Positions 35,388 to 41,736 of a stretch of DNA of 64,000 bases are shown here, piece after piece. The stretch spans positions 124,001 through 188,000 of the forward strand of contig WGME01000004.1 in NCBI GenBank assembly GCA_016125225.1. Reading direction: 5' to 3'. The notes beneath the pieces were generated by a model. It ran no database searches, was not told where the DNA came from, and was given only the letters and a program-made list of their open reading frames with translations. This DNA comes from a bacterium (GTDB taxonomy: Bacteria; Planctomycetota; Planctomycetia; Planctomycetales; Planctomycetaceae). Each line of letters starts with the position of its first letter. Position 1 is the first letter of the stretch. The position numbers and the translations under genes were made by a program.

Positions 35388-35737
35388 GATGAGCCGCCTT
35401 CAGCAAATGTCGTTTGAGTGCGTGAGACAACAAAGAGTTTCGCCGGGTGAACACGGTGTCAACTTTACCGATTGAGCCAGCCGGAGGGTATCCGACAGAG
35501 AGGCCTGAACACGGATGCTATCTAAATATCAGAAAAGAACTTGCAACGACTAACGGAACATTTCAGAATATTTTCTGGCGAACATTCCCCCGGCCGGGTT
35601 GGTATAGTTATTAGCCAGCTAAATCCGGGAGAGATTCTTTCAGACAGCAGTGTACGGCACCGTCACAACCCCGGTGGTGTAAGCATGTTACAGCGATGTT
35701 TACGGGCGGGCTTGTTAGGGCACATAAGGGGACAGGC
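35388..35737. other. Intergenic region upstream of the DUF1549/DUF1501 block
   Basis: About 350 bases between divergent genes with no convincing ORF. A possible -10 element TATAGT lies at 35603-35608, just after a C/G-rich palindrome (CCCCCGGCCGGG, about 35587-35598), but no clear -35 box was found. The ribosome site for the next gene (GGGGACAGG) is at the right end. Confidence 0.3.
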
Positions 35738-37417
35738 ATGACCTTCGGTCAGCGCAGCGAACAACGATTCTGGATGAATGGCAGCGTGGTCACTGGCATG
35801 CTGCTCGCGACCCTGGTTTGTAGTGTGGCTGTTGCCGCGGACGATGAAAGTGTCCGACTCGGGGCCGGCGATCCAGTCGTGGAGTTTATCAATGCCAAAA
35901 TCCGCCAGGGGTGGACCGACAACGAAGTGATGCCCTCGCCTGCGGCAGAAGATGCCGAATGGCTCCGCCGGGTCTATCTTGACATTGTCGGCCACATTCC
36001 CCCCGTGGAAGAGATTGAAGCCTTCCTGAAGGATAAAGACAAAAGCAAGCGGGCCAAGGTTATTGAAAAACTGCTCGAAGACCCGGGCTATGTCCGCAAC
36101 TTTACCACCGTCTGGACCAACAACTGTATCGGTCAGCAGACGCCCCGGTTCGTCAGCCGCGCGGGCATGGAAAAGTTCTTCCGTGAAGCCTTCGGCCGCA
36201 ACCGTCCGTGGAATGAAGTCGTTTACGACCTTGTTGCCGCCGACGGGCACTATGAACAAAATGGGGCGGTCAATTACCTGCTGGCACAGATGCAGGATAA
36301 TGACGATGGCGTGCAGGCCACGGCGATGACCGCCCGGTTGTTCCTCGGTCTGCAGGTGCAATGCACGCAATGCCACAACCATCCGTTCAACGATTGGAAG
36401 CAGGATCAGTTCTGGCAGTTCAACAGCTTCTTCCGTCAGGCTCAGAAGCGGGAACATCGCAAATTCAATCCGCAGACGGGCCAGATGGAAGACGACTATG
36501 CCGAAATCGTGTTCCGCGACTTCGATGGCCCGGTTTACTACGAAAAGCGAAACGGCGCCATGCAGGTGGCGTTCCCGATTTTCGAAGGTCACGAAATCGA
36601 TTCTGGAGCCTCCAGCGATCGCCGCGTGGAATTCGCCAAGCTGATCACCAGCGGCGAAAAGCCCTTGATTGCTTCGGCGATGGTGAACCGGACGTGGGGC
36701 CACTTCTTCTCGTACGGCTTCACCCGTCCGATTGATGACATGGGCCCGCACAACCCTTCGACTCATCCGGAACTGCTCGATCGCCTCACCGAAGAGTTCG
36801 TGAAATCGGGCTACGATGTTAAGCAATTGATCCGTTGGATCGCCAACTCCGAGGCCTACAGCCTGACCAGTAAGTTTGGCACCAAGAATACTCACGACAG
36901 TCCGGGTGCTGGCGAGACCGCTCTCTTCAGCCACATGTACATCAAGCCAATGCGGGCCGAGCAGTTGTATGACTCGCTGATCGTCGCCACGAATGCCCAT
37001 CGTTCCGGCCGGTCGGGTTGGGAAGAATCCGAGCGGCAGCGGCAACAGTGGTTGCAACAGTTCGTGCGGGCCTTCGGGAACGACATGGCTGAGGAAAGCA
37101 ACAACTTCGACGGCACGATTCCGCAAGCCTTAATGATGATGAACACCAATCCCCGTCCGCAGGGCGGCGACGCCACATTAATGTCAGGAGCGGTGAGCCT
37201 CGAATCTGGCAGCCATCTTGCCGAGTTGCTGGCGGGTCCGGGAGGCGAAGCTCAGAAGATTCAGCAGTTGTTCCTGACCTCATTGAGTCGGATGCCGACG
37301 CGGTCGGAACTGAATGGCATGCAGAAGTTTCTCAGGGCCAATCGCGACCCGCGTATGGCTCTGCAAGACATGTTCTGGGCATTATTGAACTCGAATGAAT
37401 TCATTCTGGTGCACTAA
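35738..37417 (+). CDS. DUF1549/DUF1553 protein with one c-type heme motif
   Basis: Encodes 559 residues from ATG 35738. A signal peptide or anchor is seen (VVTGMLLATLVCSVAVAA). DUF1549 (PF07583) covers about 40-250: EDAEWLRRVYLDIVGHIPPVEEIEAFL and RNFTTVWTNNCIG, then CTQCHNHPF with Cys209, Cys212 and His213, the CxxCH heme motif. DUF1553 (PF07587) follows: MVNRTWGHFFSYGFTRPIDDMGPHNPSTHPELLD and MRAEQLYDSL, ending FWALLNSNEFILVH. These proteins are exported and numerous in planctomycetes; an electron-transfer or oxidoreductase role is inferred from the heme motif. The DUF1501 gene follows 117 bases later. Confidence 0.88.
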   Translation: MTFGQRSEQRFWMNGSVVTGMLLATLVCSVAVAADDESVRLGAGDPVVEFINAKIRQGWTDNEVMPSPAAEDAEWLRRVYLDIVGHIPPVEEIEAFLKDKDKSKRAKVIEKLLEDPGYVRNFTTVWTNNCIGQQTPRFVSRAGMEKFFREAFGRNRPWNEVVYDLVAADGHYEQNGAVNYLLAQMQDNDDGVQATAMTARLFLGLQVQCTQCHNHPFNDWKQDQFWQFNSFFRQAQKREHRKFNPQTGQMEDDYAEIVFRDFDGPVYYEKRNGAMQVAFPIFEGHEIDSGASSDRRVEFAKLITSGEKPLIASAMVNRTWGHFFSYGFTRPIDDMGPHNPSTHPELLDRLTEEFVKSGYDVKQLIRWIANSEAYSLTSKFGTKNTHDSPGAGETALFSHMYIKPMRAEQLYDSLIVATNAHRSGRSGWEESERQRQQWLQQFVRAFGNDMAEESNNFDGTIPQALMMMNTNPRPQGGDATLMSGAVSLESGSHLAELLAGPGGEAQKIQQLFLTSLSRMPTRSELNGMQKFLRANRDPRMALQDMFWALLNSNEFILVH

Positions 37418-37534
37418 TGCTGGAATTCGGCGAACATTGATGTGCGGGCCAACGTTCATCTGTGTCACCTGTTAACTCTGTCCAAATTAACGCAGTTCCA
37501 TTCACATCGCAGCGACCACTTTTTGGAGTTATCC

Positions 37535-38839
37535 ATGCATCTGCCGACCCCCGCTGGCATGAACCGGCGCCATTTCATGCGACATCTGGCCGCCAGCGCG
37601 GCGACCATTCCGGCGTTGAATTTCATCTCCCACGTCCAGGCCAATGCTGCCCAACTCAAGCGGAACAACAAGGCCTGCATTCTGATGTGGATGAGCGGCG
37701 GTCCTCCCACGATCGACATCTGGGACTTGAAGCCTGGTTCCAAGAACGGTGGTGAATTCAAGCCGATTTCCACCAAAGGCAACCTGCAGATCAGCGAGCA
37801 CATGCCCAAGACCGCGCAGGTCATGGACAAGCTCTCGGTCGTGCGGGCGATGAGCACCCGTGAAGCCGACCACGGTCGTGGCCGCTACTACATGCACACT
37901 TCCTACGTCCCCAACCCCACCGTCGTCCACCCGGCCTTTGGTTCGGTGGTCAGCTACGAAGTCGGTACGAAGCGCAAGGAACTCGAAATCCCCGCGTTCG
38001 TCTCGATCGGTGGCGGTGGCAGCAGCCCGGGCTTCCTCGGCATGTCGCACTCGCCGTTCCTGGTCGATACCTCCGGCCGCATTCGTAATGCCGACATGGG
38101 CGACCTGGAACCCGCTCGCCTCAATCAACGCCTCGAAATGCTCGGCGTGATTGAAGACGGCTTCATCAAGTCGCAGCGCGGCGAGTATCCGCAAGCCCAT
38201 AAGGACATCTATCAGAAAGCGGTCAACCTGATGACTTCCCAGCAGATGGAAGCCTTCAAGGTCGATCAGGAATCGCCCGAAACCCTCGCCATGTACACCG
38301 GTGCTCCGGCACAGGGCGGCATGATGGGTGGCGGCGGTCAGTTTGGTCGTGGCCTGCTGATGGCCCGTCGTCTGGTCGAAGCCGGTGTTCCGTTCATCGA
38401 AATCGACTTCGGTGGCTGGGATCTGCATAACAACGTCTTCGACACCCTGAAGAATCAGCGTCTGCCGCAACTCGACGCCGGGATTGCCGGGTTGGTTGCC
38501 GATCTGACCCAGCGGGGCATGATCGATGACGTCACCCTGGTCTGGATGGGTGAATTCGGTCGTACGCCGCGGATCAACCAGGATGTCGGTCGCGATCACT
38601 GGGCAGCCAGCTGGTCGGTGATGATTGGCGGCGGTGGCCTCAATGGCGGCGTCGCCGTCGGCGAAACCGACAAGGATGGCACCTCGATCGCCAGCGGCAA
38701 GAGCTATCTGCCCGGCGATATCTGGGCGACGGTGGCTCGCCAGATGGGAATCCCGCTCGATACGGTCCACACCTCCAAGCGTGGTCGTCCGATGCGGATC
38801 GCCAACGGTGGTTCGCCGATCCAGGAATTGATTTCCTAG
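37535..38839 (+). CDS. DUF1501 protein, partner of the upstream DUF1549/DUF1553 gene
   Basis: Encodes 434 residues from ATG 37535, after GGAG. The export signal is [20 protein letters not shown], with a twin-Arg start. DUF1501 motifs: [59 protein letters not shown] and [21 protein letters not shown]. The central stretch has Gly-rich [13 protein letters not shown]. It is a separate paralogue from the other two DUF1501 proteins here. Its stop TAG shares its G with the GTG of a small downstream ORF. Function not established. Confidence 0.88.
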
Positions 38840-38997
38840 TGAATGATCAACCCGTGACTCTCATTTTCATGATTGTTACGGGGTGCAGTTTCGGGATGGA
38901 TAGTGATGCGGGGGGCATGTTTGCCCCTCGCATTGCTCCCGATTTGAGCAGACTCATCGAGGATCACGTGCTCATCCCTGCGGAACAGCCAGCGTGA
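38839..38997 (+). CDS. Candidate 52-residue small ORF coupled to the sigma factor gene
   Basis: An uninterrupted frame from GTG 38839 to TGA 38997. The start overlaps the DUF1501 stop (TAGTG) and the stop overlaps the sigma-factor start (GTGA), so both junctions have the geometry of translational coupling. The product starts with a short polar segment, then VTLIFMIVTGCSFGM, a hydrophobic run ending in Cys16 that resembles a lipoprotein box, then an acidic tail ending LIPAEQPA. No family is known to me. A chance ORF in a 154-base gap is possible; the double overlap is the main support. Confidence 0.4.
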   Translation: MNDQPVTLIFMIVTGCSFGMDSDAGGMFAPRIAPDLSRLIEDHVLIPAEQPA

Positions 38998-39548
38998 GTA
39001 CTCAGGAAACCTCTCCGCCGTCTCTTCCCGGTGGTCCCAGCACCGAGTTTGTGCAGCTATTTACCCGGCATCAGCGCCGCCTGTACCTGCACATTCTCAT
39101 GCAGGTGACACATCCGGTCGACGCCGAGGAGATTCTGCAGGAAACCAATCTCATCGCCTGGAGCAAGTTCGCCCAGTTTCAGTTGGGGACGAATTTTCTC
39201 GCCTGGGTCTCGCAGATTGCGACCTTTGAAATCATGAAGTACCGCAGCCGGAAGCGGCGAGAGCGGTTGCAGTTCAGTGAGGAGTTTCTGGAAGTCGTCG
39301 CCCAGGAATCGCTCGCCCGTACTGATGAACTCGAACAACGACGGCTGGCTTTGGTGCATTGCCTGCAGAAGCTCCGCCCGTCGGATCGTGAGTTGATTCA
39401 GCAACGCTATGCTCCCGGGGAATCGGGAAAGGCATTGGCGGAAACGATGGGTCGCCCGGCGAATTCCGTCTATCAATCCTTAGGAAGAATTCGACGAACA
39501 CTGCTGGAATGTATCGAACGTCGATTGGCGGCTGAAGCCGTAACCTGA
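38994..39548 (+). CDS. ECF-type RNA polymerase sigma factor (planctomycete type)
   Basis: Encodes 184 residues from GTG 38994. Region 2 lies at about 22-90: LFTRHQRRLYLHILMQVTH, the core-binding DAEEILQETNLIAWSKF, and FLAWVSQIATFEIMKYRSRKRR. Region 4 lies at about 118-178, with the helix-turn-helix ESGKALAETMGRPANSVYQSLGRIRRTLLECI. There is no region 3, as expected for ECF factors. The pattern fits the Rhodopirellula/Verrucomicrobium ECF family (TIGR02989-like). The next gene, 52 bases downstream, carries a FecR-like N-terminus on the cytoplasmic side of one membrane helix and is the likely regulator. Confidence 0.9.
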   Translation: MSTQETSPPSLPGGPSTEFVQLFTRHQRRLYLHILMQVTHPVDAEEILQETNLIAWSKFAQFQLGTNFLAWVSQIATFEIMKYRSRKRRERLQFSEEFLEVVAQESLARTDELEQRRLALVHCLQKLRPSDRELIQQRYAPGESGKALAETMGRPANSVYQSLGRIRRTLLECIERRLAAEAVT

Positions 39549-39600
39549 AACGAACCGAAATCTTGTTGAAGAGTGAGAGTCACCAGCGAAAGTTTTGATC

Positions 39601-41736
39601 GTGTCACTGTCCCATGCTGAACGCCAACGATTGCTGACACGGCTCGATGCCGTGTGCGATCAGCGTGCGCAGGCAGAAGACATCGCGGACATCGAACGTC
39701 TGGTACTGGCTTCCGAAGAGGCCCGTTGGCTGTATCTCACCTACCTCGATCTGCATGGTACTCTGGTTTGGGATACCGCTGGTGGAGCAGATACGGCCGC
39801 GGAGCTGGCCTGCTACGTGCCACCCTCAGACGCCCTGCCCATGCCTCCCGCCACTCAGCCCAACCGCAAGTTCGGGCTGCAACTGAAGTGGTCGGCCATG
39901 ATCGCCTTGGTGTTGTTGTGCGGCATACTGGTAGGCCGTTATCTCACGCCTCCGGAGATTTCGACTCCCGACCAATTGGCAGCACAGCCCACCGAAGAGG
40001 TGATTCCCGCCACGAATGTGGTGGCTGTTCCTGATCGTGAGCCGACTCGGCATCGGCCGGTGGAACTGTCAGGCAACCCTCTCACGCAGGCGAATCCAGC
40101 CACTGACACGACGGTGACAAATCCCATTCCGACGCTGGCTGCTGTTCCTGCTCGAGTCGAACCCGACTGGTCCGCGCAATCGCTTGATGAAATCAGCCGG
40201 GTTTCCCGACGGATCGATTTCTGGCTCGCCGCCGATTGGGAACAGATGGGAATTTCCCCCTCGCCGCGCGTGAGCGATGTACAATGGCTGCGGCGAGCCA
40301 TGCTCGATCTGGCGGGGCGCATTCCTACTGTCCCGGAAGTAACGGCGTTTCTGTCGGAGGAATCACGGAACAAACGCCGTGAACTGGTCGATCAGATTCT
40401 GGCCGACGGCGAGTACGCGCGAAACTTCACTACGGTCTGGTCAAACCTGTTAATCGGCCGTTCCCCGCAGCCCGATGTGGATCAGGAGGCTTTTCACAAA
40501 TATCTGCGGATGAGTTTCGCGACGAATCGGCCGTGGAATGCCGTGGTGGCCGATCTGGTCTCTGCCGAGGGGAACACGCACGAGAATGGAGCCACGAATT
40601 ATCTGGTGGCCCATCTCAACAATCAGGCGGTCCCGGCGACCGCGATCACGGCCCGGTTATTTCTCGGTCAGCAGCTTCAATGTGCACAGTGCCATAATCA
40701 TCCCTTCAACGATGTGCAGCAGTCGAGCTTCTGGGAACTCAACAGCCTGTTCCAGCAAGCGAAAGTGGTGACGGAACGTCCGAAAATGATGACGGACAAC
40801 CGTCGCGGCCCCGCTATGGCTGCCTTGACGACCGAAGTGGAAGGAGGCCCGATTTACTATGAGACGACTAACGGACTCATGAAAGTCGCCTTCCCCCGTT
40901 TTAACGGGCAGGATGTCGATCCCGCGCCGGAGGTCAATCGCCGAAAAGCACTGGCGACTTTGTTGACCACCACCGATCAGCCGCAACTGGCGGCGGCGTT
41001 TGTGAACCGGATGTGGGCTCATTTCTTTGGGGCAGGTTTTACGACGCCGGTCGATGACATGGGGCCGCATAACCCTCCATGTCACCCGGAAGTCTTGAAC
41101 ATTCTGACCGAGGAATTCGTTCGCAGCGGCTACGATATTCAGCGACTCGTCCGGTGGATCACGGACACGGAAGCTTACCAGCTGGCAAGTCGGCCGGGTG
41201 AGCAGAACATCAGCGATGACATCGCCACTGGCGACATTCCCTTGTTCTCGCGGGTCTATCCCAAGCCGATGACAGCCGAACAACTCTACGATTCGCTGCT
41301 GACTGCGACTCAAGCACACCAGCAGGGAGTGAGTGACTGGGCCGCCGCGGAAGCCCAACGGCAAGCCTGGCTCGATGAGTTCGTGGTCTCTTTACAGAAC
41401 GATGAGAACGGCGAGAGCGAAACGCTGTCGGGCACGTATGCCCAGGCGCTCACGGTTATGAACGGCGATTTGATGGACAAGGCCGTGGATTTATCGCCGG
41501 GAACTTTTCTGGGGGAACTCGTTCGCTCGAAATCCACCGAGACTGAGAAGATTCGCACGCTTTGCCTGGCTGCGTTGTCTCGCGAACCAACTCCCAAGGA
41601 ACTCGCCGCCATGCAGCGGCTGGTGCATGAAAGTTCGGCAAACCGCAAAACAGCCGCCAGTCGCGTGAGCGGTTCCGGCTATCAGGACCTCTTCTGGGCC
41701 CTGCTGAATTCCAACGAATTCGCCATCGTGCATTGA
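39601..41736 (+). CDS. Putative anti-sigma (FecR-like) N-terminus fused to a membrane helix and DUF1549/DUF1553
   Basis: Encodes 711 residues from GTG 39601 (TTG 39595 would add two). Residues 1-60 (LLTRLDAVCDQRAQAEDIAD, LVLASEEARWLYLTYLDLHG) match the cytoplasmic N-terminus seen in planctomycete FecR-like anti-sigma proteins. A membrane helix lies at about 96-113 (WSAMIALVLLCGILVGRYL). After a Pro/Thr-rich linker, DUF1549 begins near 200 (VQWLRRAMLDLAGRIP), with the heme motif CAQCH (Cys361, Cys364, His365). DUF1553 follows (FVNRMWAHFFGAGFTTPVDDMGPHNP; FWALLNSNEFAIVH). The upstream sigma gene makes a sensor/anti-sigma role likely by inference. Close kin to the DUF1549/DUF1553 protein at 35738. 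Confidence 0.85.
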   Translation: MSLSHAERQRLLTRLDAVCDQRAQAEDIADIERLVLASEEARWLYLTYLDLHGTLVWDTAGGADTAAELACYVPPSDALPMPPATQPNRKFGLQLKWSAMIALVLLCGILVGRYLTPPEISTPDQLAAQPTEEVIPATNVVAVPDREPTRHRPVELSGNPLTQANPATDTTVTNPIPTLAAVPARVEPDWSAQSLDEISRVSRRIDFWLAADWEQMGISPSPRVSDVQWLRRAMLDLAGRIPTVPEVTAFLSEESRNKRRELVDQILADGEYARNFTTVWSNLLIGRSPQPDVDQEAFHKYLRMSFATNRPWNAVVADLVSAEGNTHENGATNYLVAHLNNQAVPATAITARLFLGQQLQCAQCHNHPFNDVQQSSFWELNSLFQQAKVVTERPKMMTDNRRGPAMAALTTEVEGGPIYYETTNGLMKVAFPRFNGQDVDPAPEVNRRKALATLLTTTDQPQLAAAFVNRMWAHFFGAGFTTPVDDMGPHNPPCHPEVLNILTEEFVRSGYDIQRLVRWITDTEAYQLASRPGEQNISDDIATGDIPLFSRVYPKPMTAEQLYDSLLTATQAHQQGVSDWAAAEAQRQAWLDEFVVSLQNDENGESETLSGTYAQALTVMNGDLMDKAVDLSPGTFLGELVRSKSTETEKIRTLCLAALSREPTPKELAAMQRLVHESSANRKTAASRVSGSGYQDLFWALLNSNEFAIVH

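Follow-up and report, generated by a model that had tools for sequence, protein, structure and literature searches.

A four-gene sigma factor unit in a planctomycete genome

The window analyzed here is a 64,000-nucleotide stretch of a Planctomycetaceae genome (GenBank assembly GCA_016125225.1, contig WGME01000004.1, positions 124,001 to 188,000 of the forward strand), and it contains four plus-strand genes, termed A, B, S and F, that make one unit at window positions 35696-41736 (Table 1). S encodes an extracytoplasmic function (ECF) sigma factor, and F encodes a fusion protein in which a short N-terminal segment (the head) is followed by a membrane helix, a linker and a DUF1549/DUF1553 body with a CxxCH motif. 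A encodes a free paralogue of that body and B encodes a DUF1501 protein. The original prediction, made from the sequence alone, had paired an ECF gene with a fusion of a FecR-like head, a membrane helix and a DUF1549/DUF1553 region with CxxCH at 38994-41736, and had proposed that a heme-bearing domain of the fusion releases the sigma factor. Both open reading frames (ORFs), the helix, the two domains and the motif (CAQCH, residues 363-367) were confirmed; the interval takes in the sigma and fusion genes but leaves out A and B. Also overlooked, besides the free A paralogue and the DUF1501 gene, were another family, whose sigma and head are of a different kind, and a shared promoter motif. Together, these four suggest a circuit that controls A and B.

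Table 1. Features of the A-B-S-F unit (window positions; residue numbers refer to F).
Feature	Position	Strand	Basis or remark
Candidate ECF promoter GGCGAACATT-N14-GGTATA, upstream of A	35577..35606	+	tentative
A: free DUF1549/DUF1553 protein, probably exported	35696..37417	+	PSCyt2 E 3.5e-44, PSD1 E 3.8e-36
B: DUF1501 protein with Tat-like RR stretch	37442..38839	+	DUF1501 E 5.9e-95
S: ECF sigma factor, TIGR02989 class, GTG start, 184 aa	38994..39548	+	
F: head, membrane helix, linker and DUF1549/DUF1553 body, TTG start, 713 aa	39595..41736	+	
F head, residues 8-66	39616..39792	+	gapless alignment of 27 heads; structure model
F membrane helix, residues 95-116	39877..39942	+	hydropathy 2.04 over 95-113; modelled helix 98-116
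F linker, residues 117-198, probably disordered	39943..40188	+	low confidence; pLDDT <50 for 117-177
F body, residues 199-713, paralogue of A	40189..41733	+	PSCyt2/PSD1 matches; trees
CxxCH (C363, C366, H367), candidate covalent heme site	40681..40695	+	kept in 27/27 window-family and 37/37 Pirellulaceae F bodies

In S, Sigma70_r2 and Sigma70_r4_2 both exceed their Pfam cut-offs, and the score of 161.4 bits against TIGR02989 (curated cut-off 124.55) places it in that class. The F body matches PSCyt2/DUF1549 at residues 207-389 (E 7.9e-41) and PSD1/DUF1553 (E 1.9e-36), with 140.7 and 126.2 bits against cut-offs of 29.8 and 28.5. A Pfam scan at E<=1 did not find the FecR domain (PF04773) in F, which is therefore not a member of the FecR family proper. 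The longest ORF of A encodes 573 aa; a signal-peptide-like stretch follows ATG 35774, which is probably its start, and A is probably exported. B probably starts near 37535, and its match to TAT_signal is weak (E 0.043, under the Pfam cut-off). Because A has this signal-peptide-like start and B a twin-arginine translocation (Tat)-like RR, A, B and the F body would share a compartment outside the inner membrane; the single membrane helix of F predicts that its head lies inside and its body outside.

An AlphaFold2 model of F, built from the window sequence and related-locus sequences only, had a mean predicted local distance difference test (pLDDT) score of 81.5, and the body was mostly well predicted. 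The head was modelled as three helices (residues 7-21, 27-39 and 41-54), with low confidence at 57-97 and 117-177. A Foldseek search with F returned no match at E<=0.001. VIA-align gave Z below 6 throughout, values that are reached by chance in helical models and indicate no family; the head, a small helical bundle in the model, matched mostly large helical proteins at Z ~5. The DUF1553 end (residues 560-713, window 41272-41733) resembled phycobilisome linkers (VIA Z ~5.6 over ~110 residues), a weak resemblance within the chance range for helical models. A model of S from its single sequence was discarded (pLDDT 47).

The head of F accompanies one class of sigma factor

To assess conservation, one locus was read in each of 36 same-genus and same-family genomes (G001-G036). 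S followed by a headed F was present in 29 of these 36 relatives, and the adjacency that the original prediction had proposed to look for in other genomes thus holds within the family. In 23 of the 29, all of A, B, S and F occur on one strand; F is cut by the contig end in L199 and L206 and split into two ORFs in L182, and at a further locus (L208) the contig ends within S. The contig L091, named 'Planctomycetaceae bacterium', carries S and a headed F too. The split in L182 (L182:5094-7226, G011) falls in the linker, leaving a head ORF and a body ORF, with one in-frame TAG.

The F heads of 27 loci (L182, L199, L206 and L091 being omitted) align without gaps, with fragment positions Y40, H47, G48 and L50 invariant and the motif ..RLE.lv..ar..Yl.y..LHGxLxWD... 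A profile of these heads, referred to as L heads, matched proteins in 122 of the 198 genomes of the class (E<=1e-4), often several in each. Twenty non-fusion L-head proteins were hand-picked among the matches listed. An S-class sigma gene stands before each of the 20 (122-206 bits against a profile of 27 S sequences from the window's family versus 16-48 bits against a Pirellulaceae sigma profile), and every one of the 20 proteins has a hydrophobic segment after its head. FecR was found at E<=1e-3 in 18 of their bodies, of which 15 passed the curated cut-off and some also contain LamG or CBM96; the remaining two are one LamG protein without FecR and one serpin. By sequence, the F head, and the head only, belongs with the FecR-like planctomycete anti-sigma regulators, and calling it FecR-like was right as to family.

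Several L-head and sigma loci were unusual in their own right. At L252:1007-3933 (G200), an S-class sigma gene precedes a protein made of an L head, a membrane helix and a complete serpin domain (E 4.3e-111), which may be an anti-sigma factor that senses a protease; near full-length relatives of it occur in 3 of the 81 genomes of that family (G200, L409 in G162 and L410 in G302). L242:3264-6500 encodes an L-head protein behind a sigma gene, with FecR (below cut-off) and WD40 repeats. The window's own genome has a sigma gene near TIGR02989 at L034 (C32:41874-45344; 117.6 bits, below the cut-off), and the membrane protein behind it scores only 5.2 bits with the fusion head profile. Another own-genome candidate, a sigma gene at C26 (L031) with a fusion-like head, was not supported, the head profile giving 2.9 bits there.

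A different head and sigma class in Pirellulaceae

The order A-B-S-F recurs in Pirellulaceae (contigs L092 Rhodopirellula, L094 Planctomycetota and L096 Pirellulaceae). Forty Pirellulaceae stretches were read, 33 picked because a long frame or the N-terminal reach of the match suggested a fusion, and seven picked as A-type matches. S then F lay on one strand in 37 of the 40, which is to say at all 37 fusions read; four of the seven A-type stretches had S-F (L326, L327, L329 and L330), and in the other three (L324, L325 and L328) it was not in the stretch read. The 37 sigma factors score 198-306 bits against the Pirellulaceae (P) sigma profile versus 21-43 bits against the S profile of the window's family, a comparison against which it counts that the six sigmas behind the P profile include two of the 37 tested contigs (L295 = L094 and L303 = L092).

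The heads of these fusions are different as well. The P head has about 35 residues, DPxLDxxLEEVLGGxxPPDLxxRIL, and was recognized in 35 of the 37 F proteins, 33 at first and two more at 17-20 bits; in L326 and L327 it is too diverged (profile 3.6 bits or less), and the P-head alignment holds 31 rows, not every head. The L-head profile matches none of the 33 fusions recognized first. A search of the class with the P head gave matches in 30 of 198 genomes, and the upstream sigma leaned to the P class at all 30 P-head loci (101-311 bits with the P profile versus 21-54 with that of the window's family), including one locus where the sigma sits 0.87 kb away and three (G040, G049 and G057) whose sigmas were used in training the P profile. 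Genomes with both classes follow the same pattern. G068 has an L head with an S-class sigma (L250, 124 versus 35 bits) and a P-head F with a P sigma (L322, 292 versus 43 bits), and G005, from the window's family, has an L-head F (L180) plus a P-head VWA protein with a P-leaning sigma (L384, 157 versus 33 bits). Eight bodies of class-wide P-head loci were scanned: a VWA-type body was seen in six, of which four belong to a third family and two to the window's family, one was FecR and one was a weak DUF1549.

These data show that head class and sigma class change together, and that heads go with sigmas, not with bodies. A head that occurs on many bodies beside its matching sigma is as expected of a sigma-binding module. 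The strongest argument for assigning sigma binding to the head is this pairing, which is statistical, and the head very likely holds the sigma factor. As a separate observation, L394, L395, L397, L398, L384 and L391 each combine a P head, a membrane helix and a VWA/YfbK-type body with a P-leaning sigma upstream; this architecture is anti-sigma-like, and its head scores above no named family's cut-off.

The fusion body groups with A of its own family

The residues C363, C366 and H367 are intact in every F body compared, 27 from the window's family and 37 from Pirellulaceae. They are also kept in A (29/29, 28/29 and 29/29, respectively, in the window's family; 24/24 in Pirellulaceae). Other residues that are conserved in A were lost from Pirellulaceae F, such as D238 (0/37, compared to 28/29 in A), Y528 (1/37) and F371 (4/37); the listed A-conserved columns that stand at 37/37 are R234, C363, C366, H367, W474 and F551, and no others. 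F of the window's family retains many of the A-conserved residues. A kept CxxCH with other residues lost is what would be expected if a sensor keeps its cofactor site and sheds other functions. F thus has the motif of a c-type cytochrome, CxxCH, in a domain whose export is predicted from one membrane helix, and its genome has two matches to a cytochrome c assembly family. The F body is likely to carry heme.

The window's genome has 51 DUF1549 matches, and the relationship of F to A was placed by trees. In a tree of 78 bodies and 12 outgroup rows, F grouped with A of the same family both in the window's family (support 94) and in Pirellulaceae (support 99). A stricter tree of 62 rows, from which seven long or distant rows were left out and in which A and Pirellulaceae A were thinned, gave the same groups with support of 96/79 for the window's family and 100/100 for Pirellulaceae. 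In either family, most F branches exceed the A branches in length. These trees suggest that the fusion design arose twice, once per family.

Promoter motifs upstream of S and A

The original prediction had also proposed a search for conserved promoter sites, and in Pirellulaceae these were found before many S and A genes. Upstream of S, tTGAGTACTT-N14-CGcTT (short form TGAGTACTT-N14-CGYTT) gave good sites in 22 of 36 regions, a set from which L326 is absent, with a kept-site median of 23.7 bits versus 10.5-12.9 in shuffles. Upstream of A, nTGAGTACnt-N14-CGTTt gave good sites in 14 of 24 regions (21.6 bits versus 12.2-13.8). The motif also lies before A-B pairs that are unlinked to S-F, on another contig in G040 and about 1 Mb off in G068, and is weaker before the unlinked pair of G235. 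When 30 of the 49 exact matches to the motif in 10 genomes were read at the locus level, seven lay just before S and two about 100 nt before A. It is quite likely, from this recurrence of the motif, that S controls A-B in Pirellulaceae. At seven of the loci (L335, L339, L340, L347, L361, L362 and L363), the first in-frame start at least 5 nt past the S -10 element lies 5-23 nt beyond it, and the Pirellulaceae sigma mRNA may therefore have little or no leader.

The window's family returned a divided result. A CGAAC-type/GGTAT motif was found before A at moderate strength, and the regions before S gave shuffle level only. The candidate site of the window (Table 1) scores best in the window with a model built from the regions before 29 A genes of the family, the window's own included, and lies 119 nt before the longest A ORF and about 197 nt before 35774. 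A motif before A with none before S would be compatible with a single transcript that starts ahead of A, and we lean toward S controlling A-B in this family too. A TGAGTAC-type promoter in the window's family was rejected (13.5 bits versus 11.6-14.0, shuffle level). FecR-type L-head operons do not show the CGAAC/GGTA motif (14.2 bits versus 11.6-15.4 in shuffles); before the FecR-type sigma genes of L241-L260 there is a different motif above shuffle level, ttgTctaaTT / cATTTc (17.2 bits versus 12.3-15.3).

A proposed self-regulating circuit and its alternatives

We consider it fairly probable that A-B-S-F is a self-regulating circuit of an ECF sigma factor and a membrane anti-sigma factor, in which the sensor was duplicated from the protein under its control. 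In such a circuit, the N-terminal head of F would hold S at the membrane. The F body, exported and duplicated from A with its CxxCH, would report on the condition of the A-B system beyond the cytoplasm, such as its load of heme, its redox status, or the binding of a partner or substrate; this is the least certain step, and sensing of A-B status by the F body is put forward tentatively. Upon the signal, F would free S, either by changing its conformation or by being cleaved in its linker or membrane helix, and free S would transcribe its own gene together with F, and the A-B pair. Control of S-F and A-B by S is suggested by the promoter evidence in Pirellulaceae, and is tentative in the window's family. 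In a bolder form, which we regard as doubtful, the anti-sigma factor senses by means of a covalently heme-bearing duplicate of its regulated protein, measures heme loading or redox use of the DUF1549/1553-DUF1501 system and sets its supply, a design invented twice with two unrelated sigma-binding heads.

Several observations weigh against the circuit. The head had no credible match to a Pfam or NCBIfam family (27 heads were scanned against Pfam up to E 10; DUF4880, zf-HC2 and other anti-sigma N-termini were absent from the 10 families listed, and HMMER filters drop most matches above ~0.1), and a PDB sequence search with F and the head profile detected no similarity to solved anti-sigma domains. 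In Pirellulaceae, 14 of the 36 regions before S and 10 of the 24 before A had no good promoter site. For the window's family, the score of the motif before A was a moderate 17.9 bits versus 12.3-15.2 in 10 shuffles, and none was found before S (11.7 versus 10.5-13.6). In six of the 36 relatives (L198, L200, L201, L202, L207 and L209), the stretch read holds A-B but lacks S-F, which means that an A-B pair need not come with the circuit; in extended sequence for three of the six (L331-L333) neither S nor a head was found. Distances between S sequences did correlate with those between heads at 23 loci of the window's family (L191 and loci without B were omitted), both after correction for B (r 0.47, 5 of 2000 permutations) and after correction for the F body (r 0.36, 8 of 2000). 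S distances correlate with those of the F body as well (0.51, 0 of 2000), which means that the coevolution seen in this mirror-tree test is not specific to the head. Exact motif matches across Pirellulaceae genomes numbered 49, versus 41 for the reversed pattern, which gives no sign of a wide regulon; because of this, the circuit appears to be local, comprising S-F itself plus A-B.

The absence of S-F beside some A-B pairs counts in favor of another explanation, namely that F is an ordinary FecR-type anti-sigma factor whose DUF1549/1553 body is a generic ectodomain that binds a ligand or protein, with a structural or metal-binding CxxCH and with A-B as co-transcribed neighbors. The same head also carries FecR, LamG, CBM96 and serpin bodies, as a generic ectodomain would have it, and heme on the body is a prediction. 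We consider this explanation unlikely, since, in both families, the trees place the body with the A found in the same unit and since the S motif recurs before unlinked A-B pairs, tying F to A-B. It is still less probable that F is mainly a membrane-anchored enzyme or cytochrome whose head recruits or activates S rather than inhibiting it, a pro-sigma function of the kind reported for the N-terminus of E. coli FecR. The 59 N-terminal residues of FecR are reported to be essential for ECF activity (PMC7406223), and F of the window's family keeps many residues conserved in A, as an enzyme might. Pirellulaceae F, however, has lost many of those residues, and F branches are longer, for which a sensor is the better fit.

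A further alternative concerns only the origin of the unit and is compatible with the proposed mechanism: one ancient A-B-S-F unit in which S and the head segment were swapped in one lineage. Both families share the identical gene order A-B-S-F, and S and the head are contiguous, so that a single recombination could swap both. This account also requires that F bodies were homogenized to A by gene conversion, which could imitate two origins. The separate clades of A and F bodies in each family argue against it, as conversion must then have stopped early in both. Forcing all F bodies into one clade was 60 log-likelihood units worse (p-AU 0.020), in a test that was run on a quick tree and chosen once the tree had been seen, which weakens it as evidence for two origins. 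A single origin is, on this evidence, the less probable account.

The preferred circuit would matter in several respects. A sigma circuit with a defined promoter motif is a direct route to the inducing signal, and hence to the function of DUF1549 and DUF1501 proteins. What the cytochrome domains peculiar to planctomycetes do, and what DUF1501 does, is described as not known (PMC5615132 and PMC4452313, respectively). A body that is kept while head and sigma class are swapped amounts to a domain swap made by nature, in which the specificity between sigma and anti-sigma factors can be studied. If true, the repeated making of a sensor from a copy of its target would be a general route to feedback sensors.

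Comparison with known systems

The pairing of an ECF gene with a PSD1/PSC2 protein was already suggested in 2004 and is not new. In Rhodopirellula baltica, as related in passages of a 2009 study, Studholme 2004 suggested that the ECF factor RB10049 regulates RB10051 (PSD1 plus PSC2), a protein with a suggested redox role, and RB10049 was up-regulated in all three stresses that the 2009 study tested (PMC2754498). RB10049/RB10051 is likewise an ECF gene paired with a DUF1549 plus DUF1553 protein. In those passages, RB10051 is presented as a regulated protein, and an anti-sigma head, a helix or a paralogue in the same unit goes unmentioned (PMC2754498); by analogy with the Rhodopirellula contig L092, we infer that RB10051 may be a P-head fusion. 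A full-text literature search, whose reach did not extend to the main papers on ECF classification, turned up no earlier account of an anti-sigma fusion with a DUF1549/1553 body. DUF1501-containing genomic modules of Planctomycetes, Verrucomicrobia and Chlamydiae (PVC) bacteria are credited to Kamneva 2012 in the sections of two papers that cite it (PMC4452313 and PMC4960237). Those modules resemble B in placing a DUF1501 protein beside an exported partner, whereas sigma and fusion genes go unmentioned in the sections concerned.

Class I anti-sigma domains (ASDI) likewise have a short cytoplasmic helical N-terminus, one membrane helix and an adjacent ECF gene. The F head is unlike them in that it has no Pfam or PDB sequence match and is modelled as three helices over ~54 residues; the group of E. 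coli FecR is itself set apart from other class I anti-sigma domains in work on these domains (PMC7406223). The planctomycete FecR-type regulators are the closer likeness, as they share with F the head family, a helix right after the head and adjacency to the same sigma class. They differ in the exported part, which is FecR/LamG there; in F it is a DUF1549/DUF1553 body with CxxCH that is a paralogue of a product of its own unit. What is possibly unusual in the A-B-S-F unit is an ECF/anti-sigma pair whose sensor copies its probable target, perhaps recruited twice and perhaps heme-binding.

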